IMG/VR virus record: IMGVR_UViG_3300034110_000280
Span: 1-22,186 of that record
From: a virus
DNA: 22,186 nt
Direction: 5' to 3' (one strand)
Shown: one piece after another, positions 5,849 to 14,736 of the stretch
Numbering within the stretch: position 1 is the first letter of the stretch
Layout of the letters: every line of letters begins with the position of its first letter
Program-made: the position numbers and the translations under genes
Notes under the pieces: model-generated
The model's input: only the letters and a program-made list of their open reading frames with translations
Told to the model about the DNA's origin: nothing
Database searches by the model: none

Positions 5849-6082
5849 TTAGAGATTTTCATCATATGAAGGTAGGTTACTAATCGAAGTTGACTCAGTA
5901 AATGCTTGATGCTCAAATTCATATTGATATGAATGATCTTTAGATTTGTGCAAACAAGTGTTACATAGAGCAACTAATTCTGGGGAGTGTGGGTAGGTTC
6001 TGGTTGTTTCTGAACCAGCCAAGGTTCTATCACAAGCAATACAGTGGAAGACCATACCCGTTAATATACGGGATGAAGACAT
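5849..6082 (-). CDS. Small zinc-binding protein (two CxxC pairs)
   Basis: A 77-residue protein with Cys14-x2-Cys17 (HCIACDR) and Cys40-x2-Cys43 (LCNTCLHKS), spaced as in a single zinc ribbon or treble-clef fold. The C-terminal 25 residues are acidic and polar and look unstructured. Such mini zinc proteins in phages may bind host RNA polymerase, DNA or RNA; nothing here tells which. The start has AGGA upstream, and its own promoter lies at 6117-6144. It stands alone between the tRNA region and the late operon. Confidence 0.72.
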   Translation of the reverse strand: MSSSRILTGMVFHCIACDRTLAGSETTRTYPHSPELVALCNTCLHKSKDHSYQYEFEHQAFTESTSISNLPSYDENL

Positions 6083-6116
6083 GATGAAAATCCTAAGAGT
6101 TGGTTGGTAAAATGAA

Positions 6117-6144
6117 AGAATAGCATGACATTATGATTTGTCAA
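6117..6144 (-). promoter_or_regulatory. Sigma-70-type promoter for the zinc-protein gene
   Basis: On the minus strand: TTGACA (6144-6139), 16-base spacer, TATTCT (6122-6117). It lies between the 3' end of the CAU tRNA and the zinc-protein start, so it gives that gene transcription independent of the tRNA unit. Confidence 0.68.
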
Positions 6145-6164
6145 TAGCTAAATGAAAATAAATT

Positions 6165-6242
6165 TGGTAGACCCACGAGGATTTGAACCTACGTACCTTT
6201 CCCTTATGAGGGGACTGCTCATACCAAATGAGCTTTGAGTCT
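6165..6242 (-). tRNA. tRNA with CAU anticodon (Met or lysidine-type Ile)
   Basis: A full cloverleaf can be drawn on the minus strand: acceptor AGACTCA with TGGGTCT (7 bp, one G-U), D stem GCTC/GAGC, anticodon loop CTCATAA giving CAU, T loop TTCAAAT, discriminator A and an encoded CCA. Total length is 78. Two flaws are visible: the outermost anticodon-stem pair is G-A, and the T stem pairs only as CG-(T)-AGG with CCT-CG, that is with one bulged T. Met and Ile(CAU) cannot be told apart here without checking identity elements. It may be functional or slightly decayed. Confidence 0.75.
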
Positions 6243-6256
6243 AGTATTAAGAAATA

Positions 6257-6273
6257 CCCCTCTATTCGAGGGG
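6257..6273 (-). other. GC-rich hairpin just upstream of the CAU tRNA
   Basis: CCCCTC (6257-6262) and GAGGGG (6268-6273) pair around a five-base loop. It lies 14 bases before the 5' end of the tRNA and lacks a U-run on the minus strand, so a processing signal or spacer hairpin is more likely than a terminator. A further stem, CAATGTAG with CTACGATTG (6283-6290 and 6303-6311, one bulge), lies directly next to it. Confidence 0.45.
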
Positions 6274-6321
6274 ATATTATTACAATGTAGCTAGAAAACA
6301 AACTACGATTGCTCAGACTTG

Positions 6322-6421
6322 TAATGAGTCGTGTTCGTGGATACCACTAAACATACTTAGCTAACTACGAGAACCCCCATAGTTATCCATTTGCAACTGG
6401 TGCTTTGTATTCAACTCATTA
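6322..6421 (-). ncRNA. Structured RNA candidate with a four-way-junction layout
   Basis: An outer 10-bp stem joins 6412-6421 with 6322-6331 (one G-U wobble). Inside it, an 8-bp stem pairs TAACTACG (6362-6369) with CATAGTTA (6378-6385), one pair being a wobble on the minus strand. A 4-bp stem, GTGG/CCAC, lies at 6337-6347, and a weak CCA/TGG stem at about 6388-6401. The shape is tRNA-like in outline, but I find no convincing anticodon arm or T loop, so I do not call a tRNA. The outer stem shares bases 6416-6421 with the right arm of the neighbouring 18-bp repeat, so the two structures cannot both form. Confidence 0.35.
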
Positions 6422-6535
6422 GTTTGATGTTTACGGTGGAGTCGAACCACGAATATCTACCCAAGATTTAAGATGGAATTGAACCATCAAACTGTATGCC
6501 TACAGTGCGCCATGCTATAAACATCAAACTAATGA
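6416..6535. repeat. 18-bp perfect inverted repeat enclosing the tRNA-like element
   Basis: TCATTAGTTTGATGTTTA at 6416-6433 is the exact reverse complement of 6518-6535, with 84 bases between. It extends the acceptor stem of the tRNA-like element well beyond seven pairs. The nine-base core CATCAAACT occurs a second time at 6485-6493, so the left and inner copies compete for the same partner. Confidence 0.85.
6428..6523 (-). tRNA. Aberrant type II tRNA-like element, possibly tRNA-Leu (CAA)
   Basis: On the minus strand: acceptor TGTTTAT (6523-6517) with GTAAACA (6434-6428); a perfect 5-bp arm GATGG/CCATC with loop TTCAATT (6472-6488), which read as an anticodon loop gives CAA (Leu); a variable arm ATCT/AGAT (6455-6467); and a T arm GTGG/CCAC with the canonical loop TTCGACT (6436-6450). 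Problems: the stretch between acceptor and anticodon arm is 28 bases and folds as ACTGT/ACAGT (6491-6506) rather than a normal D arm; base 37 would be T; and no CCA is encoded. The loop TTCAATT also fits a T loop, so this may instead be a fused remnant of two tRNAs. It sits inside an 18-bp inverted repeat. Confidence 0.42.
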
Positions 6536-6541
6536 ACTAAA

Positions 6542-6577
6542 ATAAGTGGGGATAAACATTTCTGTTACACCCCTTAT
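6542..6577 (-). other. Leader hairpin with GAAA tetraloop before the tRNA region
   Basis: On the minus strand ATAAGGGG pairs with CCCC-A-CTTAT with one bulged A. Inside it, after a 3x3 internal loop, AACA pairs with TGTT around a GAAA loop. It lies about 40 bases after the -10 box of the promoter at 6615-6642, so it would be part of the 5' end of the tRNA-region transcript. It may be a stability or processing element. Confidence 0.45.
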
Positions 6578-6614
6578 CTTTCCAGTGGAAAAACCTTACA
6601 TCCTCACAAGACAA

Positions 6615-6642
6615 ATAATACCACAGATTTATATATTGTCAA
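6615..6642 (-). promoter_or_regulatory. Sigma-70-type promoter for the tRNA region
   Basis: On the minus strand: TTGACA (6642-6637), 16-base spacer, TATTAT (6620-6615). It lies immediately after the stop of the 125-residue gene and has only structured non-coding DNA downstream for about 370 bases, so its main products should be tRNA and structured RNA. Confidence 0.75.
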
Positions 6643-6661
6643 GTATTATTTTAAAATATTT

Positions 6662-7039
6662 TTATTCATATTGCTTATCCTCTGATAACTTCAAGTAACC
6701 TTTGTTAGCTAACCCATGTGCAATATCGTGCGAAATTCCACGAGAAATATCAGAACTATGATAAATGTAATCTGCTACATCTCTAATTAAGTTCTTCTTT
6801 TCAATGTAAGTATTACGATCCAATGGATAGAAATATTGATAATAACCTAACGTACCAAGATTAGGACTAAATCTTTCGTCAATCACTCTACATACACATA
6901 TGTCACACATACCATTGTTTGTATGCTCAAGGATCTTAACTTTAAGAACTTTATCTTCAGAATTGCATGTAAGTACAATCTCACCTACTGGTGGTAAATT
7001 CACCATCTCTTGATTATGATAATCATACCAATTTGTCAT
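6662..7039 (-). CDS. Unrecognised small phage protein (125 residues)
   Basis: It starts MTNWYDYHNQEMVNLPPVGEIV. The opening phrase, a Trp-Tyr-rich start then PPVG, is a recurring pattern in phage accessory proteins and looks like a small beta-rich fold at residues 15-70, with two Cys at CDICVC (45-50). The C-terminal third is helical. The function is unknown. Its ATG overlaps the stop of the zinc-ribbon gene by four bases (ATGA), so translation is probably coupled; both belong to the unit driven from 7686-7714. Confidence 0.75.
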   Translation of the reverse strand: MTNWYDYHNQEMVNLPPVGEIVLTCNSEDKVLKVKILEHTNNGMCDICVCRVIDERFSPNLGTLGYYQYFYPLDRNTYIEKKNLIRDVADYIYHSSDISRGISHDIAHGLANKGYLKLSEDKQYE

Positions 7040-7257
7040 TTGTTGCTCTCCTCTTTTCTGGCGATGTAGTTAAGTAAGTTTAAAGATTTATCATTCTCAA
7101 CTAACTGTGCATATGTGGTGAATATAAAACCACAACTACTACACATGGTGTTCAAGGTATCAAGGGATTTACATTGTCCATATACAGTCACATCTTCTGT
7201 TATTACTAACAGTTCAAGATCGGATTGGTTACAATGTGGACATCGAGTTATTGTCAT
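7036..7257 (-). CDS. Small zinc-ribbon protein
   Basis: A 73-residue protein with Cys6-x2-Cys9 (RCPHCNQ) and Cys39-x2-Cys42 (MCSSCGF), the layout of a zinc ribbon like that found at the N terminus of YgiT/MqsA-type antitoxins or in transcription-factor ribbons. No helix-turn-helix follows, so it is not a complete antitoxin of that type. It may act in transcription or as a DNA or RNA contact module. The ribosome site AGGAGAATATA is strong. It is the middle gene of three on the minus strand. Confidence 0.75.
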   Translation of the reverse strand: MTITRCPHCNQSDLELLVITEDVTVYGQCKSLDTLNTMCSSCGFIFTTYAQLVENDKSLNLLNYIARKEESNK

Positions 7258-7266
7258 TATATTCTC

Positions 7267-7656
7267 CTATTTATTTGAATACTTGGCATGTAATCGTTCA
7301 TACTCAGCACGTTCATTTTCTTCCTTCTCCAGACGAGATTTCTCTACCCGTTGTTGGTACTCTAATTCCTTTTGCTTTACCTGTTCTAAACAGTATTTAC
7401 GAAGCTCTTGTAATTTAGCATCAATATTTTCTGGGAATTTAACTAGCCCGCTAATTCCACTCCAATCATATCCACACTTATGCACTTGAATAAATAAATT
7501 ACCTTTTGATACTACTAACCCGTCTGCATAAAAAGATTGCTCAATATCACCTAACTCCAATGTAATATCAAATTCTTCTTGCAGCTTGTACATCTCATCA
7601 AGATAATGATCTGCTAAGTTTTCTAATCGTTGGTGTTCTGCAATAAAGTCTTTCAT
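7267..7656 (-). CDS. Unrecognised protein with C-terminal coiled coil
   Basis: A 129-residue protein. The first 80 residues mix helix and strand (LFIQVHKCGYDWSGISGLVKF at about 54-74). Residues 80-125 are a strongly charged helix (KQKELEYQQRVEKSRLEKEENERAEYERL), very likely a coiled coil for self-association or partner binding. The start has AGAGGAGATAACC upstream. It is the first gene of the three-gene unit behind the promoter at 7686-7714. No family is recognised. Confidence 0.75.
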   Translation of the reverse strand: MKDFIAEHQRLENLADHYLDEMYKLQEEFDITLELGDIEQSFYADGLVVSKGNLFIQVHKCGYDWSGISGLVKFPENIDAKLQELRKYCLEQVKQKELEYQQRVEKSRLEKEENERAEYERLHAKYSNK

Positions 7657-7685
7657 GGTTATCTCCTCTGTAAAAAACTAAACAA

Positions 7686-7714
7686 ATACTAGCACTAGGT
7701 CTTTTAGGTGTCAA
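7686..7714 (-). promoter_or_regulatory. Sigma-70-type promoter for the three-gene minus-strand unit
   Basis: On the minus strand: TTGACA (7714-7709), 17-base spacer, TAGTAT (7691-7686). It lies between the AT-rich tract of the candidate origin and the ATG at 7656, leaving a leader of about 25 bases. Confidence 0.75.
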
Positions 7715-7717
7715 CAG

Positions 7718-7873
7718 GTTTTTATTGATTCTCTAGATCTTTCTTTTTTATTATTTCTTTTCCTTATTATCTAATCTCTTTATTATATAGTGTAGCCATT
7801 GCGCACAGGTCAAGTGTCGTATTGGAGACAGGTAGTTGTCGTTAATACGGACAGGTAACTTCTCTGTAAGCTT
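7718..7873. other. Candidate replication origin: three iteron-like repeats beside an AT-rich tract
   Basis: ACAGGT occurs at 7805, 7828 and 7851, exactly 23 bases apart each time. The first two copies also share TGTCGT at nearly the same offset (7815 and 7837). The repeats end at the stop codon of the winged-helix gene. On their other side, about 7725-7792 is almost wholly A/T with strong pyrimidine bias on the plus strand, as a DNA-unwinding region would be. No ORF is credible here. Iterons, AT tract and a neighbouring DNA-binding protein gene together resemble iteron-type origins; an operator array for that protein is the main alternative. Confidence 0.5.
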
Positions 7874-7874
7874 A

Positions 7875-8312
7875 CTAAAACGGTTCATCATCATTAAACC
7901 AAGTAGTATTTACTTGTGGTAAAGGTACTTGTTTTTTAGGTTCCTTGTGTGCTTGTTTCTTTGTCTGTTTAGTTATTACACCATTAGGTGTTAATATATC
8001 CATTACAGTGTACACGTTTGTCTGATTGGCTTTATCAGACCCTAAACCATGTCGTTCTTGTCTAATCACAAAACCTAAGTTAACAAGTTTGTTGATTGAC
8101 TCTATCACTTTAGATCTACTAATACCGATAGCTTCACTGATAGTGGTATTTGATTCATGAAACGTGTTACCTTGTAGTTTAAAAAACTGATACCTAAATT
8201 TCATGTAAGCAAAGACTTTCAGTGAGTAAGTGTCTATCTCAGAATGTAACAAAACTTCCATAGGGATCTGCACGTTGTAGTGAGGAAGTATTGCTTCGTT
8301 CTTATATGTCAT
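7875..8312 (-). CDS. Winged-helix replication/regulatory protein with an SSB-like C-terminal tip
   Basis: A 145-residue protein. Residues about 20-110 resemble the helix-turn-helix domain of DnaD/RepA_N-like replication and plasmid-control proteins: LKVFAYMKFRYQFF, then TISEAIGISRSKVIESINKLVNLGFVIR as the recognition helix pair and wing. After a Lys-Gln-rich linker (about 114-132) it ends NTTWFNDDEPF. This acidic tip ending in Pro-Phe is the same kind of tail with which SSB proteins recruit helicases, nucleases and primases. Just beyond its stop lie three 23-base repeats. I infer an origin-binding or replisome-loading protein; a plain repressor is possible. The ribosome site GGGAGGTGAAGA is very strong. 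Confidence 0.68.
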   Translation of the reverse strand: MTYKNEAILPHYNVQIPMEVLLHSEIDTYSLKVFAYMKFRYQFFKLQGNTFHESNTTISEAIGISRSKVIESINKLVNLGFVIRQERHGLGSDKANQTNVYTVMDILTPNGVITKQTKKQAHKEPKKQVPLPQVNTTWFNDDEPF

Positions 8313-8346
8313 TCTTCACCTCCCTTGGTAGTTAGAATTGACAATC

Positions 8347-8375
8347 ACTCTATACCATCTAGTTTACCTTGTCAA
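8347..8375 (-). promoter_or_regulatory. Divergent promoter, leftward, for the winged-helix gene
   Basis: On the minus strand: TTGACA (8375-8370), 17-base spacer, TAGAGT (8352-8347); the -10 box matches consensus at four of six places. The -35 box lies within GTCAACAT (8371-8378), a motif repeated at 8420-8427 beside the opposite promoter. Confidence 0.5.
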
Positions 8376-8389
8376 CATCAAAATATCTA

Positions 8390-8418
8390 TTGACAACACC
8401 TTCTCATGTGTGTAATAT
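8390..8418 (+). promoter_or_regulatory. Divergent promoter, rightward, at the head of the early arm
   Basis: TTGACA (8390-8395), 17-base spacer, TAATAT (8413-8418). It starts the plus-strand gene array. TTGTCAA at 8369-8375 and TTGACAA at 8390-8396 are exact inverted copies covering both -35 boxes, and GTCAACAT repeats at 8371 and 8420, so a shared operator is plausible. Confidence 0.78.
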
Positions 8419-8449
8419 GGTCAACATTGATAACGCAGAGGAGAATACC

Positions 8450-8713
8450 ATGAATGATTGCAAAACGAACATCGACGAACACTCAATCCTAGATCTATTG
8501 ACATTAACTCGGATGTATGTCAACATTCCATACAATGCGATCTTTGAGTTTGTAGCTGTAGAGTCTAGTCGTAATCTGGATTTCTTTGATAAGAACATTA
8601 TTGACCGAATGTATGATAAATTTAAAGATGAACGGTTAGTGATGAACATACTATTAGCTGTTCGTGCAGACTTGTTAGAAATTAACATCGTGAATGCTGA
8701 TTATAACTCGTAG
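8450..8713 (+). CDS. First gene of the rightward early arm, unrecognised (87 residues)
   Basis: I place the start at the ATG preceded by GAGGAGAATACC rather than further upstream, since the upstream reading runs back into the promoter. The protein (MNDCKTNIDEHSILDLL...) is acidic and mainly helical, with Leu- and Ile-rich helices typical of a small all-alpha protein, and has no cysteine pairs or membrane segment. Being first behind a consensus promoter suggests very early expression, the class that often includes host-takeover proteins; its function is unknown. Confidence 0.7.
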   Translation: MNDCKTNIDEHSILDLLTLTRMYVNIPYNAIFEFVAVESSRNLDFFDKNIIDRMYDKFKDERLVMNILLAVRADLLEINIVNADYNS

Positions 8714-8720
8714 GAGCGTT

Positions 8721-8789
8721 GTAGAGACTACATAATGGGCGTACCTAAGCAAAGGCACTGCTTATAGATAATAACAGCGTATAGACGCT
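8721..8789 (+). promoter_or_regulatory. Leader with three short hairpins before the 77-residue gene
   Basis: Three stems follow one another: GTAG/CTAC around AGA (8721-8731), TAAGCA/TGCTTA around seven bases (8746-8764), and AGCGT/ACGCT around ATAG (8776-8789). AGCGT also occurs at 8715-8719 and could pair with 8785-8789 instead, closing all of it into one larger fold. GGAGGAA follows for the ATG at 8804. I see no U-run, so translation control or RNA stability is likelier than termination. Confidence 0.42.
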
Positions 8790-8803
8790 TGGAGGAAGTA
8801 TAA

Positions 8804-9037
8804 ATGAACAAAGAACAACAACATTCACCTAAATATTGGGTAGTACATAACAAACACAATGACGATATTTTGGTTAACACTTTAAGTAAGACTAAAATTA
8901 AAGCGGTTGATCGCTTCCTTGATTATTATGCTTATGACATAGTTGGTGTCATGTCGGACGACGAGTTAGAAGATTGGTGGGAAACCCAAACAGAGTTTGT
9001 TTGTAACTTAATTGAAGTTAAATTAGTGGAGGCATAA
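8804..9037 (+). CDS. Unrecognised small protein (77 residues)
   Basis: It starts MNKEQQHSPKYWVVHNKHNDDI. It has a short strand-rich N terminus, then a helix with many acidic residues (MSDDELEDWWETQTEF). The ribosome site is GGAGGAAGTATAA. Its stop TAA is followed directly by the next ATG. No motif is recognised. Confidence 0.7.
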   Translation: MNKEQQHSPKYWVVHNKHNDDILVNTLSKTKIKAVDRFLDYYAYDIVGVMSDDELEDWWETQTEFVCNLIEVKLVEA

Positions 9038-9355
9038 ATGCAAGAAGATTACAAACCATATATTCAAAATCGTATCTACGTGTCAGTTGGTGATAAGTTA
9101 TACGAACGTCAAGTAGTGTGTGCAGCTAACCGCTACGGAGACTTGATTGTGTTAGGTGTGCGTCATCACTGTCCTATTATGAATAAAACTTTGGATCTGT
9201 TAGGTATTGACGGATTTACAAAAGAACAAGGCTTCGTAGACCAATGGGGTAACTACATGGATCGAGTAGAAGCCTTGGAAGTATTAAAAGCTAATGGGAG
9301 ATTTATTAGAAATGAAGAATTTCTTGATGAATTATATAGTGAAAACCTTTATTAA
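9038..9355 (+). CDS. Unrecognised small protein (105 residues)
   Basis: A mixed strand-helix protein. RHHCPIMNKTLDLLGIDG (about 47-64) is a distinctive stretch; residues 64-76 (FTKEQGFVDQWGN) read like the GFVD-type phrase seen in many uncharacterised phage proteins. No membrane segment. It starts after GTGGAGGCATAA and is likely co-translated with the gene before it. Confidence 0.72.
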   Translation: MQEDYKPYIQNRIYVSVGDKLYERQVVCAANRYGDLIVLGVRHHCPIMNKTLDLLGIDGFTKEQGFVDQWGNYMDRVEALEVLKANGRFIRNEEFLDELYSENLY

Positions 9356-9371
9356 AGATGGAGAGGTTTAA

Positions 9372-9590
9372 ATGACTAAATCAGAGATAGATTTACAGAA
9401 GTTGGAAAACAAGTTAGTCTCGTTGGTGGTCTATTTTAAAAGTAGACTACCAGATACACACGATACACTCGCTATTAAAATGGCAATCAGACACGCAGAA
9501 CGTGCAGGATGGTTTAAAGAACTTTCAGACCAAGATTTAATAGCACTACCTACGGTTAAATTACATTTAAATAAACGTAAAGAATTATAG
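9372..9590 (+). CDS. Unrecognised small helical protein (72 residues)
   Basis: A basic, mostly helical protein (LQKLENKLVSLVVYFKSRL; AIRHAERAGWFKELS) ending in KRKEL. The charge pattern would allow nucleic-acid or protein binding but shows no known motif. The ribosome site GGAGAGGTTTAA lies before the ATG. It lies seven bases before the next gene. Confidence 0.68.
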   Translation: MTKSEIDLQKLENKLVSLVVYFKSRLPDTHDTLAIKMAIRHAERAGWFKELSDQDLIALPTVKLHLNKRKEL

Positions 9591-9597
9591 AGGGAGT

Positions 9598-9807
9598 ATG
9601 AAAAAAGTACAGATATGCTATCACATTTATCGTTGTCATCCAGAGACATGCTGTCATGATAATCATAATTCTTGGTGGGTGTATGATCTAAAATCAATGG
9701 ATGTAATTGATAAATTTGAATCTAAGAATAAAGCTATTGATTTCTGTGACACAAATGATTTAGAATTTACAATTAAGCTTCCAAATTGGAGTGAATATGG
9801 CTATTAA
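9598..9807 (+). CDS. Small Cys/His-rich protein (69 residues)
   Basis: The first 22 residues carry Cys7, His9, Cys13, His14, Cys18, Cys19, His20 and His23 (ICYHIYRCHPETCCHDNH), a density that suggests metal binding, though the spacing is not a standard zinc finger. The rest is a small mixed fold (WWVYDLKSMDVIDKFESKNKAIDFC). It starts after GAGGGAGT. Its end overlaps the start of the next gene by 11 bases. Confidence 0.65.
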   Translation: MKKVQICYHIYRCHPETCCHDNHNSWWVYDLKSMDVIDKFESKNKAIDFCDTNDLEFTIKLPNWSEYGY

Positions 9808-10174
9808 AATTATAGATCCTAAAGGTTTCCATAAATATATGGATCACATTGACGCCACTGACGATAAAATTGAAGAATTAAGGTCACAGTTAAAAAGCTT
9901 AGAAGAATACCGTAAAGATTTATTTGCAAGGAAAGAGGAGTGTGTAATTCACTACCTAGATGAACCAACATATTCACATTCAATGGAGATGATTGATAAA
10001 TTTATAACAGACACAGGGTTCGATGGTCTTTGGGACTTTGATAAATTTTGGGATAGATATGCTTATTTTGACGATGCTAAAGGATGGGATTGTGGTATTT
10101 ACAATCTAAATGTAGTGTACTATGCTGAAGTAGAAATGCGGTATAAAGACTTAAAACGTGAGGGGAAATTATGA
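9797..10174 (+). CDS. Unrecognised protein with N-terminal coiled coil (125 residues)
   Basis: I use ATG at 9797 (MAIKIIDPKG); an in-frame GTG six bases earlier lies inside the ribosome site TTGGAG. Residues about 20-48 (DKIEELRSQLKSLEEYRKDLFARKEE) form a short coiled coil. The second half is rich in Trp, Phe, Tyr and Asp (GLWDFDKFWDRYAYFDD), suggesting a compact aromatic core. The 3' end overlaps the next gene as ATGA. Confidence 0.7.
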   Translation: MAIKIIDPKGFHKYMDHIDATDDKIEELRSQLKSLEEYRKDLFARKEECVIHYLDEPTYSHSMEMIDKFITDTGFDGLWDFDKFWDRYAYFDDAKGWDCGIYNLNVVYYAEVEMRYKDLKREGKL

Positions 10175-10764
10175 GCGGTGCTGAAATATTTTTTACTATT
10201 TTATTTTCGTTAGTAGTTGTTGGTTTGTTACTTGTAGTTGTTAAATTAATTAAGTATGTGTTTAGACAAATTAAATTATCATTTACAAAACCGTGGGAAG
10301 ATAAATCTAAAGATGTATTAAGGGTTGAATTTAATAATAAGGACATATTAGATAATTGGATTTCCGTATATTACAGAGTAAATAACGTGTGGTATAAAGG
10401 TTCTAATTCTTGTTATATTGATAAATCTTGGGATGAATGTAAAATGGGTGAACCTGTAGGGACATTACTTACATTAATACTTGAAGATTATCAAAATTTT
10501 AATTATGTAAAAGGTGAGACAAATTTTAGTCATAGTAAATTGGACATTTATGTAGAGGATAAAAACCTTCTACATATGTTCGGACACAGTATAAGTGTTA
10601 GCCATTTAGAGTCTACCGCAATTATTAGTTTCCTAGACGGCATTGCAACAGACAAAGAAACTAAAGCGGCGGAACTTAAAAAACAACAATTAGCTGAAAT
10701 CAGAGAAAAGAATACTGAAATAGTTATAGATGAAATCAACAAATATTTGGAGGATAAGGAATGA
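10171..10764 (+). CDS. Membrane-anchored protein, unrecognised (197 residues)
   Basis: One clear membrane helix at residues about 6-29 (IFFTILFSLVVVGLLLVVVKL), followed by basic residues (KYVFRQIKLSF), so the long C-terminal part should face the cytoplasm. Residues 50-150 look globular with Trp/Tyr-rich strands; residues 155-197 are a charged helix (ETKAAELKKQQLAEIREKN). It may tether a factor to the inner membrane or act at the envelope in early infection. It overlaps genes on both sides by four bases. No family is recognised. Confidence 0.7.
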   Translation: MSGAEIFFTILFSLVVVGLLLVVVKLIKYVFRQIKLSFTKPWEDKSKDVLRVEFNNKDILDNWISVYYRVNNVWYKGSNSCYIDKSWDECKMGEPVGTLLTLILEDYQNFNYVKGETNFSHSKLDIYVEDKNLLHMFGHSISVSHLESTAIISFLDGIATDKETKAAELKKQQLAEIREKNTEIVIDEINKYLEDKE

Positions 10765-11075
10765 AATTAAAAGCTGGAATACCATTAACCACAAAGAATC
10801 CACAGGAACACACTAATGCTGTGGTATATAAAGTGATAGAAGGTGAACATCGGAATGTCATATGGGTAATTTCAGACTTCGGTAATATTATGAAGTTTCC
10901 ATCTGAAGAAGATGCGCTTCAGCGATATGTTGTTAGTCGCACATATGAAAGAGAAGTATATTATGCTGGAGAATTAGATCTAGGGCAGGAATGGTTGGAT
11001 GGTCAATTTGATATTCGTGGTAGATTGCGAAATCAGATTGAATTGTTAACAGAAGCATTGGGAGATTTGGAATAA
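10761..11075 (+). CDS. Unrecognised small protein (104 residues)
   Basis: A beta-rich first half (AVVYKVIEGEHRNVIWVISDFG) and a helical C terminus (RGRLRNQIELLTEALGDLE). No catalytic motif or membrane segment. It is translationally coupled to the membrane protein before it (ATGA) and to the methylase-like gene after it (TAATG, one shared base). Confidence 0.7.
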   Translation: MKLKAGIPLTTKNPQEHTNAVVYKVIEGEHRNVIWVISDFGNIMKFPSEEDALQRYVVSRTYEREVYYAGELDLGQEWLDGQFDIRGRLRNQIELLTEALGDLE

Positions 11076-11599
11076 TGAAAGACAATCACGAATTAATCAA
11101 CCAAGACAGTGGAAACACAGAATGGTACACCCCAAAAGAAATTATCGAGGCTGCTAGAGCGTGTCTTGGTAAGATCGACTTAGATCCTTTTAGTTGTGAT
11201 GTAGCTAATAAAACAGTTAAGGCTACTGACATCTACACTAAAGAAGATGATGGATTTGAACAACAATGGTTCGGTAAGGTTTGGTGTAATCACCCATTCA
11301 GTCGTGAAAACAATAAACGTATTGCTATGAAAGCTGTAAATGAATATCATGGTAATAATTGTGAGATTGTTATGATTACCTTTGCTGCTACTAGTGAAGC
11401 TTGGTTCAAACCTTTATTATATCGTCCACAATGTTATCTACATGGTCGCACAAACTACTATGACCAGAACGGCAATAAGGTTAAAGGTGTCACTAAAGGT
11501 AGTGTTGTTACATATTTCGGGGATGATGATGAAAGTTTCTACCAAGCATTTAAACATTTAGGTACGATAAAAGTACCGTATCTGAGCGAAGGAGAATAA
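11075..11599 (+). CDS. Dam-type phage DNA N6-adenine methyltransferase
   Basis: A 174-residue protein that fits the phage DNA N-6-adenine-methyltransferase (PF05869-type) family: EWYTPKEII at 16-24, LGKIDLDPFS at 31-40, a DGFEQQW segment at 59-65 and KVWCNHPFSR at 68-77 in the place of the catalytic NPPY/F motif. The second residue of that motif is His73 instead of Pro, so the active site reads NHPF. The family methylates adenine, often to shield phage DNA from restriction or to mark it. The length is normal. It sits in an early operon between unknown genes. Activity with NHPF is plausible but unproven. Confidence 0.8.
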   Translation: MKDNHELINQDSGNTEWYTPKEIIEAARACLGKIDLDPFSCDVANKTVKATDIYTKEDDGFEQQWFGKVWCNHPFSRENNKRIAMKAVNEYHGNNCEIVMITFAATSEAWFKPLLYRPQCYLHGRTNYYDQNGNKVKGVTKGSVVTYFGDDDESFYQAFKHLGTIKVPYLSEGE

Positions 11600-11600
11600 C

Positions 11601-11825
11601 ATGCACGACCATTTATATAGTTATGATAAAATTTATAAGTATGAAATTGTTGTCGAACCTATTCCAAATTCAACAAAGTACAAAGGTTATGTTTATCTAG
11701 ATTTATACGAGAAAGCTGTATACATTTCAGGTGAGTTCAGTGACCCAGAAGCATTAAGAGATTTATTAATCACCAATGTTACTAATTACCTTGATAATTT
11801 TGGAGCTATCCCTATTGACAAATAG
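11601..11825 (+). CDS. Unrecognised small protein (74 residues)
   Basis: It starts MHDHLYSYDKIYKYEIVVEP. The first 45 residues alternate hydrophobic and polar residues like an antiparallel sheet; then come a loop and a helix (DPEALRDLLITNVTNYLDNF). The ribosome site GGAGAATAAC is strong. It ends inside a promoter sequence for the following gene. Confidence 0.7.
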   Translation: MHDHLYSYDKIYKYEIVVEPIPNSTKYKGYVYLDLYEKAVYISGEFSDPEALRDLLITNVTNYLDNFGAIPIDK

Positions 11826-11849
11826 GGATTCAATGATAGTATTAATACT
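11815..11849 (+). promoter_or_regulatory. Promoter with an overlapping 12-bp palindrome
   Basis: TTGACA (11815-11820), 16-base spacer, extended -10 TGATAGTAT with TAGTAT at 11837-11842. AGTATTAATACT (11838-11849) is a perfect palindrome covering the -10 box and the expected start site, a good place for a repressor. It serves the gene at 11871. Confidence 0.6.
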
Positions 11850-11870
11850 TAAATTAATTAGGAGAGAATT

Positions 11871-12266
11871 ATGAGCGATATTCAAGAAAAACTCATCGAG
11901 TTATTTCAACTTGATGGTAGCGCAAGTGTTGCAGAATACTTAGCTGAGTATACTGATAGTACAAAACAACTATGTACTACCGATGAACAACGTGATCTTG
12001 TTGAAGAATACAGTCGAGAGTTATACACTAACTTTAAAATGGATACAGCAAAATATCCGATTGTAGCAAGATTGGAAGAAGCTTTATTAATGAATATGTC
12101 TGAAGATACTATTAAAGAACTTCTTCGCGTCATCAATAGCCCTGACTACATCAAGTTGTATGAGTGCCTAGCTATTGTGTTAGATGAATTTAAATACGGT
12201 CTGGATGATATTGATAGTGTTATCGACATCGAACCAGTAGAACGTGAAACACGAATCTTAATGTAA
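11871..12266 (+). CDS. Unrecognised acidic helical protein (131 residues)
   Basis: A strongly acidic and almost entirely helical protein (KLIELFQLDGSASVAEYLAEYT; LLMNMSEDTIKELLRVINS), with no Cys pair or membrane segment. Acidic small phage proteins sometimes mimic DNA or bind host enzymes, but no family is recognised. It follows TAGGAGAGAATT and has its own promoter at 11815-11842. Confidence 0.72.
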   Translation: MSDIQEKLIELFQLDGSASVAEYLAEYTDSTKQLCTTDEQRDLVEEYSRELYTNFKMDTAKYPIVARLEEALLMNMSEDTIKELLRVINSPDYIKLYECLAIVLDEFKYGLDDIDSVIDIEPVERETRILM

Positions 12267-12276
12267 GGAGAATGTT

Positions 12277-12480
12277 ATGAAATTTAAATTTGAAACAGGT
12301 GCTGTATACATGGCAATGGAAAAATTCATTGCAGAATATAAAGATGACTGTACACCTATTGGATATATGGAATATGACCATATTTTTGCAATTTATGAGA
12401 CATTGACACGCTCACCAGTCAAACCCGCTAGTGTATTATTGGATGATCGTGAATTCTCATTGTTGGAGTATTTCTTATAA
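12277..12480 (+). CDS. Unrecognised small protein (67 residues)
   Basis: It starts MKFKFETGAVYMAMEKFIAEYK. A short mixed fold, mostly helical, with no motif known to me. The ribosome site GGAGAATGTT is strong. Its TAA shares one base with the ATG of the small membrane gene after it (TAATG). Confidence 0.68.
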   Translation: MKFKFETGAVYMAMEKFIAEYKDDCTPIGYMEYDHIFAIYETLTRSPVKPASVLLDDREFSLLEYFL

Positions 12481-12644
12481 TGTGGTATCAGCATCTGAAA
12501 GTTACTTTAGCATTTGTATTTCTAACTCTAGGACTATTATTATTAATACCTGTATCAATCCTTACAGGTAATTATAGTAAAGTTAGTCTGAATGATACAA
12601 TTGATTTATATAAAGATATTGCTAATGATATTTATAGCAAATAG
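12480..12644 (+). CDS. Small single-pass membrane protein (54 residues)
   Basis: It starts MWYQHLKVTLAFVFLTLG. Residues 9-28 form a clear membrane helix (Leu-, Phe- and Ile-rich, ending IPVSILTG); the remaining 26 residues are polar and acidic. The TAATG junction with the previous gene and GGAG 11 bases before the ATG support expression by re-initiation. It is too short to assign; envelope effects such as superinfection exclusion would fit but are only a guess. Confidence 0.62.
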   Translation: MWYQHLKVTLAFVFLTLGLLLLIPVSILTGNYSKVSLNDTIDLYKDIANDIYSK

Positions 12645-12654
12645 GGAGTAATGT

Positions 12655-12876
12655 ATGTATAAAGCAGAAGTATGGGATTATTCAGAACATGAAGAATTAC
12701 TAGAAGTTCTAATTAGCAAACTCAGGGAGAACAAAAAATTAGTTGTATTATTTGACCCAGATTTCCCAACAGGGCGAGGTGTCTTCCATTTAGGCGGTGA
12801 ATCTGAATTAAATATTGAAGAAGCCAAGACTCTAGCGAAAACCTTGAATAATTTTCACTATAATACGGAGATTTAA
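12655..12876 (+). CDS. Unrecognised small protein (73 residues)
   Basis: It starts MYKAEVWDYSEHEELLEVLI. It has a helix, a strand (KKLVVLFDPDFP), a Gly-rich turn (TGRGVFHLGG) and a second helix (IEEAKTLAKTLN): a small alpha-beta fold. No catalytic residues are evident. GGGAG precedes the ATG. It lies two bases before the PhoH-like gene, so it probably shares its transcript. Confidence 0.68.
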   Translation: MYKAEVWDYSEHEELLEVLISKLRENKKLVVLFDPDFPTGRGVFHLGGESELNIEEAKTLAKTLNNFHYNTEI

Positions 12877-12878
12877 TA

Positions 12879-13670
12879 ATGGAACATGGTGTAGGTCGTG
12901 TGAAACGTACTCGTCGTACAAAAGATGATGTACGTGTGGATAAAGTTAATACTGGTACTCGTGAAATTAAAGAGAAATTCTTAGAAGAACGTAAGGCAAT
13001 TAAACCTGTTCAAGCCAAGAATGATTTCCAGAAAGCAGTATTACGTGCATTAGCAACAAAACAAGTAGTTGTGATCTCTGCCCCTGCGGGTGTAGGTAAA
13101 AGTTTCCTAACAATGTCTGCTGCATCAGATGACTTAGTGAAAGGTATTGTTGATAAACTTTTCTTAGCCCGACCAGCCGTTGGTATGGGTAACAGCTTAG
13201 GTATGCTCAAAGGTACGTTACGCGAGAAGTACGAGCCTTACCTTATGCCTCTAATCGAAGTGTTAGTTGACCGTCATGGTCGAGGTGTATATGAGTCTGG
13301 TTTGAATACCGGAAGTATTGAGTTAATCCCTTTTGAATATCTTCGTGGACGTAATCTTTCTGGTTGGGCTATTGTAGACGAAGTACAATGTTGTAGTTCT
13401 GAAGAAATCTACTCCGTATTAACTCGTATCACGGAAGGTGGTAAGCTTGTTTTACTTGGTGATAAAACTCAATCGGACTTGAAAGGTATTGATGGTATGT
13501 CATGGTTGCATGATTTTGTTGAACGTCATAATCTTCACGACACTGTAGAATTTATTGAAGGTACTTCTGACGATATTGTTCGTTCTGGTTTCGTTAAAGC
13601 TATTGTTAAAGCTAAAGAACAAGATACAGGTATTTATACCAACAAATGGAAGGAGAAAGCTAATGAGTAA
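12879..13670 (+). CDS. phoH: PhoH-like P-loop ATPase
   Basis: A 263-residue protein of the PhoH family. Walker A is SAPAGVGKS at 67-75 and the Walker B strand is AIVDEVQ at 164-170 (Asp167, Glu168; family members often have DEAQ). LARPAVGMG (96-104), KYEPYLMPL (118-126) and LLGDKTQSDLKG (in the C-terminal third) are family phrases. A basic N-terminal tail of about 45 residues (RVKRTRRTKDD) may touch nucleic acid. PhoH proteins are common in phages and are thought to act on RNA or in phosphate-stress responses; the true phage role is unsettled. The gene overlaps the ClpP-like gene by eight bases, suggesting coordinated synthesis. Confidence 0.9.
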   Translation: MEHGVGRVKRTRRTKDDVRVDKVNTGTREIKEKFLEERKAIKPVQAKNDFQKAVLRALATKQVVVISAPAGVGKSFLTMSAASDDLVKGIVDKLFLARPAVGMGNSLGMLKGTLREKYEPYLMPLIEVLVDRHGRGVYESGLNTGSIELIPFEYLRGRNLSGWAIVDEVQCCSSEEIYSVLTRITEGGKLVLLGDKTQSDLKGIDGMSWLHDFVERHNLHDTVEFIEGTSDDIVRSGFVKAIVKAKEQDTGIYTNKWKEKANE

Positions 13671-14406
13671 TAAAAAAGATTACGTATATGTAACTCCAGT
13701 GGCTTCAGAATACCGTTATTACTTGGACGATAGTGTTAGTGATCCACAAGACTACCACGAACTCTTTGAGCTTCTATCTTCTGCTGGTGAAAATGATATG
13801 GTACGTATTATCATTAGTAATTTTGGTGGTAGTTTGGTTACTTGTATTGCTATTATAAATGCTATCCGTTCATCTAAGGCATTAACCGTTGGTGTGTTAG
13901 CCTCTGTTGCTTATAGTGCTGGTGGTGCTATCTGGTTGTCTTGTGAAGCACAAGAAGTACAACAGCATGTTGGATTTATGGCACATGACGCTCAAGGCGG
14001 GTCGTTTGGTTCTCTATTCCAACAGAAGCAATCAATTGCGCACGAGATGGAAATTCTACGATCACTATACTCAGATGTATACGAAGGTTTCTTAACAGAA
14101 GAAGAAATCGAGTTAGTGCTGAAGAATGGTGATATGTGGCTAACTGAGAAAGACATCTGTGATCGATTAGATAACAGAGTGAAATACTTTGAAGCCAAGC
14201 AGAAAGAATCTCAAACCAAAGCATTCAATCTAGAAGGTTTAGATGAACTGTACGAAGAAGTATTGACAAGAGAACAACTGTTAAAATTAACTAAAGCAGA
14301 ACTAGCCTCTTACGTATTAGGGGAGATCGCTGTAGATGTTGATGATAATGGAAAATTAATTATCACTAAACTTGATAATCCTGTTGACAACGTAGAATCG
14401 GTATAG
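13663..14406 (+). CDS. ClpP-like serine peptidase
   Basis: A 247-residue protein with the ClpP/crotonase fold signatures. I start at MSNKKDYV because AAGGAGAAAGCTA precedes it; an upstream in-frame extension lies within the PhoH-like gene. IISNFGGSL at 50-58 replaces the usual NSPGG loop, the nucleophile is Ser85 (SVAYSAGG), the base is His108 (FMAHDAQGG), and the acid is probably Asp157 (GDMWLTEKD), so the triad looks complete. The last 50 residues are an acidic extra tail not seen in bacterial ClpP. No Clp ATPase is encoded here. It might borrow a host unfoldase, work with PhoH or act alone. It differs from the XkdF-like head protease, so a capsid role is less likely. Confidence 0.83.
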   Translation: MSNKKDYVYVTPVASEYRYYLDDSVSDPQDYHELFELLSSAGENDMVRIIISNFGGSLVTCIAIINAIRSSKALTVGVLASVAYSAGGAIWLSCEAQEVQQHVGFMAHDAQGGSFGSLFQQKQSIAHEMEILRSLYSDVYEGFLTEEEIELVLKNGDMWLTEKDICDRLDNRVKYFEAKQKESQTKAFNLEGLDELYEEVLTREQLLKLTKAELASYVLGEIAVDVDDNGKLIITKLDNPVDNVESV

Positions 14407-14412
14407 TAGTAT
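14384..14412 (+). promoter_or_regulatory. Promoter that fires inside the following terminator
   Basis: TTGACA (14384-14389), 17-base spacer, TAGTAT (14407-14412). It overlaps the last codons of the ClpP-like gene. The start site should fall near 14419, inside the left arm of the hairpin at 14414-14437, so new transcripts would lack that arm and escape termination. Confidence 0.6.
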
Positions 14413-14413
14413 T

Positions 14414-14443
14414 AGCCTCAGTCGAAAGATTGGGGCTTTTTTA
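14414..14443 (+). terminator. Intrinsic terminator after the ClpP-like gene
   Basis: AGCCTCAGTC pairs with GATTGGGGCT around a GAAA tetraloop (10 pairs, two of them G-U), followed by TTTTTTATTTT. It closes the PhoH-ClpP transcript. Confidence 0.88.
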
Positions 14444-14457
14444 TTTTAGGAGGGTGT

Positions 14458-14736
14458 GTGAAAACTATAGCAGTAATATGTAACAACAAACAAGAATGGC
14501 GACATTTCGTAGAGACTTTACAATTTACATTATCTAAAGACAATAAACCTTATAAGGTAGTAGCAGAAGCTATTGTTGACATAGATAAAAAGGTCAAGTA
14601 TATTCTTGTACCCAATCATTATAGTGGTATCAATAACATGAGAGGGTATGTTATCTCTGAGTATATTACTATGGCTAGTATTGTGGATAATGGTGTGTTT
14701 GATTATTTAATGAATAATTTAAGGAGTGTTGTATGA
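14458..14736 (+). CDS. Unrecognised small protein with GTG start (92 residues)
   Basis: The start is GTG, supported by a near-ideal AGGAGGG seven bases upstream just after the terminator. The protein begins MKTIAVICNNKQEWRHFV, a strand then a helix resembling the opening of a nucleotide-binding alpha-beta fold, then IVDIDKKVKYILVPNHYSG. It may be a truncated Rossmann-like protein, but no loop is diagnostic. A further TTGACA-N17-TATATT lies inside it (14576-14604). The 3' end overlaps the next gene as ATGA. Confidence 0.7.
   Translation: MKTIAVICNNKQEWRHFVETLQFTLSKDNKPYKVVAEAIVDIDKKVKYILVPNHYSGINNMRGYVISEYITMASIVDNGVFDYLMNNLRSVV

Follow-up and report, generated by a model that had tools for sequence, protein, structure and literature searches.

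How does a small phage protein built around a predicted DNA-binding winged helix come to end in the acidic Pro-Phe tip of single-stranded DNA-binding proteins (SSBs), and what might the tip do there? The question is raised by an open reading frame (ORF) in a viral record of 22,186 nucleotides (IMGVR_UViG_3300034110_000280), which we analysed as a whole and refer to as the window. Positions 7875–8312 on the minus strand encode, from ATG to stop, a protein of 145 residues with the C-terminus KQTKKQAHKEPKKQVPLPQVNTTWFNDDEPF, and the ribosome-binding site GGGAGGTG directly precedes the ATG. The gene and its parts are located as follows.

7875..8312, minus strand: gene of the winged helix-turn-helix (wHTH) protein, 145 residues, ending WFNDDEPF; from the ORF translation and the ribosome-binding site
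8004..8261, minus strand: predicted winged-helix core, residues 18–103; from AlphaFold2, RepA_N N-domain folds and HMM matches
7902..7988, minus strand: predicted disordered Lys/Gln/Pro linker, residues 109–137, net positive; pLDDT mostly below 50
7878..7901, minus strand: SSB-type tip WFNDDEPF, residues 138–145; from the sequence, its recurrence in six relatives and the background of ORF ends

The AlphaFold2 model, built from eight rows and with a mean pLDDT of 71.4, contains a winged helix composed of helices at residues 28–46, 55–62 and 66–79 and strands at residues 82–86 and 99–103. Blocks of residues 11–80 reach pLDDT values of 81–94, confidence is low at residues 109–123 and 130–145, and the segment from residue −40 to −9 carries a net charge of +5. 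TrmB is the best Pfam match of the core (1.9e-7), followed by HTH_36 slightly under its cut-off (7e-5). In the PHROGs collection, residues 7–108 match the N-terminal part of phrog_8102 (1.4e-16), and the families whose N-domains matched bear the names replication initiation, O-like and DnaD-like loader. The preliminary description of this DNA had proposed a winged helix and an acidic Pro-Phe tail behind a Lys/Gln linker. The former is borne out by the AlphaFold2 model, the HTH and wHTH scores in Pfam and the PHROGs N-domain match, the latter by a translation that ends WFNDDEPF after a linker of low pLDDT. As modelled, the protein is thus a DNA-binding winged helix joined by a flexible linker to an SSB-type tip. 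RepA_N (PF06970) was absent among the 16 Pfam families matched by the window protein at E up to 1; Pfam gave no SSB match either, and the model is a wHTH, not an OB fold. A DnaD-like C-domain was not found in residues 109–145, which are mostly below pLDDT 50 and free of helices, and the 145-residue protein showed no match to phrog_8102 beyond position ~125 of 337.

Structure comparison placed the core more precisely. In the Foldseek list obtained with the window model, RepA_N N-domains came on top (4pql, 5.3e-4), with MarR-type folds after them. VIA-align returned 4pql with a Z score of 11.1 (rmsd 3.6 over 102 residues), 4pt7 with 11.0 and 4ro3 with 10.7 (rmsd 2.3 over 92 residues), whereas the best wHTH outside the RepA_N group reached 9.4; all these comparisons use a predicted model with 18–20% identity to the solved structures. 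The title of 4ro3 refers to a Vibrio cholerae protein and names no function; we take it to be the N-domain of PLE RepA. A structure of the RepA N-domain is described in the PLE paper (PMC7145576). Among solved folds, those nearest to the modelled wHTH core belong to replication initiators of plasmids and satellites (RepA_N N-terminal domains, Z ~11). This resemblance and the PHROGs matches favour an initiator, yet they do not prove one because the wHTH fold is common.

No named phage matched positions 6000–14500 of the window at the DNA level. The closest TerL proteins are those of the Rheinheimera Barba phages (56%), Alteromonas phage PT11-V22 and Pseudoalteromonas phage J2-1, and two IMG/VR contigs have a TerL 90–97% identical to that of the window. 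The nearest phage, here called the L007 phage (90% TerL identity), is a 99.6-kb contig syntenic with the window, in which a divergent neighbour, an HTH_3 gene and the wHTH gene are followed by genes leading toward TerS and TerL. The counterpart of the divergent neighbour serves as synteny marker in the window.

8450..8713, plus strand: divergent neighbour gene, 87 residues, 50% identical to its L007 counterpart

The wHTH gene of the L007 phage is found at 51.7 kb, far from the helicase-polymerase module at 93–99 kb; the window phage's own replication genes are outside the 22-kb record. As a separate observation, the window TerL gene is uninterrupted, in contrast to two intron-bearing relatives, one with a group I intron at L007:10642–10927 (Rfam RF00028, 67.5 bits, E 4e-17) and one with a candidate at L006:2455–2700 (RF00028, 39.7 bits, below the gathering score).

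Relatives of the wHTH protein were picked on similarity of the winged helix and not on the tip. Of 50,697 phage records searched by tblastn, 57 matched with E values no higher than 0.01, chiefly Vequintavirinae, and the Vequintavirinae matches examined were proteins of 92–107 residues terminating at the wing, except for Salmonella phage 40, whose deposited fragment has only 63 residues. Relaxing the search to E 10 and walking from match to match led to proteins of large Aeromonas, Pseudaeromonas, Pseudomonas, Rheinheimera and Vibrio phages. The window protein (query P0001) and the KLEP7, 4L372D, 4L372XY and L007 proteins all match phrog_8102; on its own, the window protein matches the 4L372XY protein weakly (E 0.8 in the collection, 2e-5 among the candidates), and the phiA019 match extends to the last residue. 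Close relatives were found neither in viral contigs with P0001 or KLEP7 gp58 as query, nor in genome contigs with query A2. In viral contigs, A2 gave five matches (Vequintavirinae and 4L372XY) and A3 gave two that were already known, and a plasmid search produced two weak HTH matches.

Six of the relatives, from Aeromonas and Pseudaeromonas phages, carry an SSB-type tip: 4L372XY (DLDQDEIPF), 4L372D (ELDQDEIPF), PAc (DQDDVPF; the deposited start is later, the frame being open over 163 residues), PhAER-4 (HEDWNDVPF), KLEP7 (FEDDNDPPF) and phiA009 (DDLEENIPF). The tipped proteins are 119–163 residues long and, as in SSB, their linkers vary in length and sequence. When five Aeromonas proteins are aligned, the final Pro and Phe prove invariant, but the stretch linking wHTH and tip is unconserved, with length differences of up to ~35 residues. 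According to these data, the earlier claim of an SSB-type tail holds up: such tips turn up again in distantly related proteins whose linkers have drifted. The worry that the tip might vary in homologues along with a drifting linker proved unfounded within the tipped group. Against the claim, 12 of the 19 relatives analysed lack the tip; the homologue search recovered it in six distant relatives, and the syntenic wHTH protein of the nearest phage is without it. We also compared the 4L372XY and PAc proteins, which are identical at 5/7 tip and 25/38 linker residues, and the two substitutions in the tip, E to D and I to V, are conservative; with too few sites to discriminate, stronger constraint on the tip than on the linker was discarded as a claim.

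We asked how often such an end occurs by applying a loose rule, namely an ATG-initiated ORF of at least 40 residues that ends in Pro-Phe with at least two acidic residues among the preceding six. Ten of 1,895 ORFs in the window and five genomes followed it, as did 13 of 2,753 ORFs in the genomes of seven relatives, the window left out. These 13 fall into three families: the wHTH proteins (4), SSB-like proteins (6) and one further family (3). Comparing 4/7 wHTH proteins with 9/2,746 other ORFs, the SSB-like ones counted among the latter, Fisher's test gave p ~1e-8, an optimistic value given that the rows are related. This test left the window out, and three of the four tipped wHTH proteins come from related Aeromonas phages, which makes the effective number smaller. 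The window tip might still be a chance ending of no use to its protein: the nearest syntenic relative has none, the linker leading to it is unconserved, and the residue before Pro-Phe is Glu where Ile or Val is usual (Ile, Val or Pro in the other tips). Its recurrence in six relatives and the rarity of acidic Pro-Phe ends, confined to three families in 2,753 ORFs, nevertheless make chance a very improbable explanation. The SSB of phage HK620 is reported to act with Sak4 via its last six residues, NDYPPF (PMC5928155), so that residues other than Ile are tolerated before Pro-Phe. Judged from the sequences, the tip is probably a genuine ligand of the SSB-tail type.

Many relatives end differently, and the notion of a universal tip was rejected. 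In a tree of 19 rows, the tip is present in seven, another extension in seven and none in five. Untipped ends were seen in the L007 phage (EDEQEWRGY), phiPMW, Barba31A and the identical Barba5S protein, Vibrio phages P018-4, RYC, 1.101.O and S4-7, two ICP1 proteins, Pectobacterium ZF40 gp14 and 1.187.O gp255; among the extended ones, those of phiPMW (FDMEEWI) and the L007 phage have acidic-aromatic ends. The window core clusters with the tailless Vequintavirinae proteins, with weak support, and the tip label needs four changes on the tree (4–5 in bootstraps). Because of this grouping and these changes, the tip would seem to have arisen repeatedly or to have undergone frequent loss; a single origin on the 19-row tree is possible. 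No wHTH was found in PT11-V22, J2-1 or a 93-kb relative (G005). In the 93-kb relative, the wHTH slot is filled by a 434-residue protein of PHROG 4756 (L089:2468–3772, plus strand), a member of which the L007 phage carries at another place (L047:5441–6787). Vibrio phage 1.187.O gp253 (L017:1281–1949, plus strand) combines a wHTH with a Cys-rich, zinc-ribbon-like C-terminus ending CELIPF.

The acidic tails of SSB and T7 gp2.5 are known to fold back and tune DNA binding. By analogy, the acidic tail of the window protein could fold back onto the basic DNA-binding face with no partner enzyme involved. The acidic tip follows a positively charged linker in 6/7 tipped proteins, and the Sak4 study mentions that the E. 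coli SSB tail weakly touches its own DNA site (PMC5928155). However, self-inhibition needs acid and not the terminal Pro-Phe, which is invariant in the five aligned Aeromonas proteins, and we regard this explanation as improbable. We are equally sceptical of a decoy, that is, a small and abundant early protein filling the SSB-tail pockets of ExoI, RecO, RecQ or PriA and thereby shielding phage DNA or stalling host replication. It would suit short proteins of 119–163 residues bearing the tip without an OB fold. It would also suit the pocket design that many SSB partners have in common (PMC5872125). A decoy would, on the other hand, not require a conserved DNA-binding wHTH, and in relatives it is the wHTH that is retained and the tip that is lost.

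The surroundings of the gene bear on what the winged helix might bind. Candidate elements in the window are listed below; the promoters come from a consensus scan only, which found no higher number than in shuffles, and the tandem units were found by eye, their pattern being formulated post hoc, after the sequence had been inspected.

8347..8375, minus strand: sigma-70-like promoter candidate of the wHTH gene, TTGACA-17-TAGAGT
8390..8418, plus strand: divergent sigma-70-like promoter candidate of the rightward genes, TTGACA-17-TAATAT
7805..7856, no strand assigned: two tandem semi-palindromic units, TGTCGT-N6/7-GACAGGT, and a half site; candidate binding sites

The units, at 7815–7833 and 7837–7856, are located just downstream of the wHTH stop and, with the half site ACAGGT at 7805–7810, are spaced 22–23 bp apart. 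The preliminary description had the protein "beside repeats", which is a weaker point: apart from the two tandem units seen by eye behind the gene, the repeat finder gave only two-copy repeats of 10–14 nt around it, several of which are the −35 boxes of the predicted divergent promoters. Semi-palindromes with a recurrent 23-bp spacing are seen in some relatives. In phiPMW, GGACAAAATGTCC occurs three times in 103 kb, always ~100–155 bases before the wHTH start, and in the L007 phage both copies of GGACA-N3-TGTCC lie ~175–365 bases before it. Barba31A has two copies of GACAAATTGTC and imperfect ones near the wHTH gene, and PhAER-4 has two of TGTCAATTTGACA; beside the wHTH genes of KLEP7, 4L372XY and 4L372D, the same scan revealed no such cluster. 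In phiPMW and Barba31A, the semi-palindromes accompany a wHTH without tip. Ranked by local self-similarity, the region is 1/428 segments in phiPMW, 2/112 in the L007 phage, 24/193 in Barba31A and 45/468 in KLEP7; 4L372XY and PhAER-4 rank high on account of AT-rich repeats, and the window's rank of 5/101 is owed to another, T-rich repeat. The 23-bp repeat signal is strong in two genomes, not in all. The PLE paper (PMC7145576) describes RepA_N iterons as direct, semi-palindromic repeats around an A-tract, and the phiPMW sites resemble them. Two further signals were set aside: GC-skew minima near the wHTH gene of the window, the L007 phage, Barba31A and phiPMW, which are unusable as origin evidence because skew follows gene direction, and an enrichment of GTCAACA near the gene (seven in the window), which 12/100 shuffles reached.

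Semi-palindromes are to be expected at an autoregulatory operator no less than at an origin. The protein could repress or switch transcription of the divergent early and late operons, with the semi-palindromes as operators and the tip either of minor importance or otherwise used, for example in polymerase contact or stability. The wHTH gene sits at the turn between leftward and rightward genes in the window, the L007 phage, Barba31A and phiPMW, promoter-like sites diverge in the window, and sites cluster upstream of the wHTH gene itself; TrmB, the best Pfam match, is a transcription regulator family, and the MarR-type folds of the Foldseek list point the same way. An HTH_3 gene is also near the wHTH gene in the L007 phage and Barba31A, and it may own the semi-palindromes there. 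Yet a switch leaves the SSB-type tip unexplained, fold and PHROGs matches favour initiators, and one-direction clusters enclose the gene in Plateaulakevirus and KLEP7. We consider it rather unlikely that the protein is mainly a switch.

Which enzyme might the tip contact? The L007 phage encodes, in this order, a primase-helicase (phrog_239, ending GDEVVEQDF), a DNA polymerase (phrog_1252) and the SSB-like protein that terminates in DFDDDIPF. T7 possesses a comparable set: its gp2.5 and gp4 tails each close with acidic residues and Phe, and each binds the polymerase. By this analogy, the window-type tip could be one of several tails that act among the phage's own proteins. Since the nearest genome encodes its own primase-helicase, polymerase and SSB-like protein, the partner may be a phage protein, perhaps the T7-like replisome. 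Host SSB-binding enzymes are the other possibility, the candidates being DnaG, PriA, Pol III chi and ExoI, all of which bind the SSB tip (PMC5872125). The preliminary description's loader of host SSB-interacting proteins at a phage origin is supported in part, namely for the winged helix, the linker and the tip; the origin, the loading and the host partners are conjectural.

The six SSB-like proteins with acidic Pro-Phe ends are a 320-residue L007-phage and a 351-residue phiPMW protein (phrog_2544), those of KLEP7, 4L372XY and PhAER-4 (phrog_4477) and the gp2.5-like protein of Barba31A (phrog_112). PHROGs 2544 and 4477 are listed as of unknown function; their members (L047:18188–19150, plus; L083:14471–15526, plus; L054:6079–7224, minus; L060:15731–16411, plus; L076:19352–19900, minus) show the ends DFDDDIPF, FDEDIPF, DFDEQIPF, DWDEDIPF and DWDENIPF, and they are probably unrecognised phage SSBs. 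A PDB profile search with these proteins gave only weak matches to SSB tips, and the SSB domain PF00436 was detected in 0/3 genomes (L007 phage, Barba31A, 4L372XY). In the 4L372D homologue of the 4L372XY protein (48609–49328, in L068), WDNDIPF is internal, with 14 residues beyond. The third acidic Pro-Phe family, from Aeromonas phages, has DYDPF ends (L059:18376–19338, minus; L067:11492–12436, minus; L077:13522–13848, plus). A DNA pattern for F(D/N)DDEPF-stop, which overlooks other tips because the codon classes must fit exactly, retrieved two stretches from all viral contigs, with no wHTH among them. Both encode actinophage-like helicases (L041:6414–7670, minus; L042:1366–3162, minus); an AAA/RepA-type helicase, as assigned by reading the sequence, ends TIFDDDEPF and would be a second non-SSB phage replication protein with an SSB-type tip. 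A literature search, largely without full texts, found no phage winged-helix protein with such a tip.

Taken together, we tentatively favour a site-specific initiator or regulator in which an SSB-tail mimic serves as recruiting domain and brings replication enzymes to phage DNA sites; whether it does so stands at somewhat less than an even chance. In this mechanism, whose DNA sites, partner and role in initiation we infer, a double-strand DNA binder of the phage replication-initiator type would have its usual C-terminal recruiting domain replaced by the flexible linker and the SSB-tail mimic. The winged helix would bind the semi-palindromic sites adjoining its own gene, and NDDEPF would dock into an SSB-tail pocket with a basic rim and a pocket for the terminal Phe. 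The docked enzyme, possibly host DnaG, PriA, PriC or Pol III chi, or else a phage primase-helicase or polymerase, would be delivered to a chosen duplex site ahead of SSB-coated single strands there. Against this mechanism stand the 12 of 19 relatives that lack the tip, the syntenic L007 protein among them, the four label changes on the tree, the Glu before Pro-Phe, the semi-palindromes next to untipped wHTH genes in phiPMW and Barba31A and, in the L007 phage, the distance between the gene and the helicase-polymerase module. A more doubtful proposition is that in several groups of large phages DNA synthesis begins or resumes at chosen duplex sites with the help of a counterfeit SSB tail: the site-specific winged-helix protein would present to enzymes the peptide that ordinarily marks SSB-coated single strands and so nucleate the primosome or phage replisome, and the tip, which seems to come and go among related wHTH proteins, would be a swappable recruiting module. 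If true, an SSB tail detached from SSB would serve as an address label on a double-strand DNA binder. With a nine-residue tip and a known class of pocket, the recruitment step is testable by a peptide assay and a two-residue deletion.

Several known systems share parts of this design. The nearest wHTH sequences, the 92–107-residue Vequintavirinae proteins (GAP31, 4MG, KB57; 31–41% identity), stop at the wing and, unlike the window protein, have neither linker nor tip. Phage O-like initiation proteins are similar in that the phrog_8102 profile matches the N-terminal 100 residues; this profile spans 337 positions, more than the window protein, and its family name is an annotation, not a functional test. 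With bacterial and phage SSBs, the protein shares the tip (NDDEPF vs DDDIPF, with D, D, P and F kept) and a drifting linker, whereas its double-strand-type wHTH and missing OB fold set it apart. The RepA_N initiators (pSK41 Rep, pTZ2162 Rep, PLE RepA) are alike in the winged-helix N-domain (Z ~11), perhaps in semi-palindromic repeats, which some relatives carry close to the gene, and in a C-terminal part that possibly recruits replication enzymes. Among plasmid initiators, pSK41 Rep joins a wHTH to a C-domain binding DnaG, and pPR9 Rep, in which that C-domain follows a phage-type HTH_36 N-domain, replicates (PMC5703833). How RepA_N-type initiators recruit the replisome is an open question according to the PLE paper (PMC7145576). 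Unlike these initiators, the window protein has no folded C-domain and instead carries ~40 disordered tail residues with an SSB-type end.
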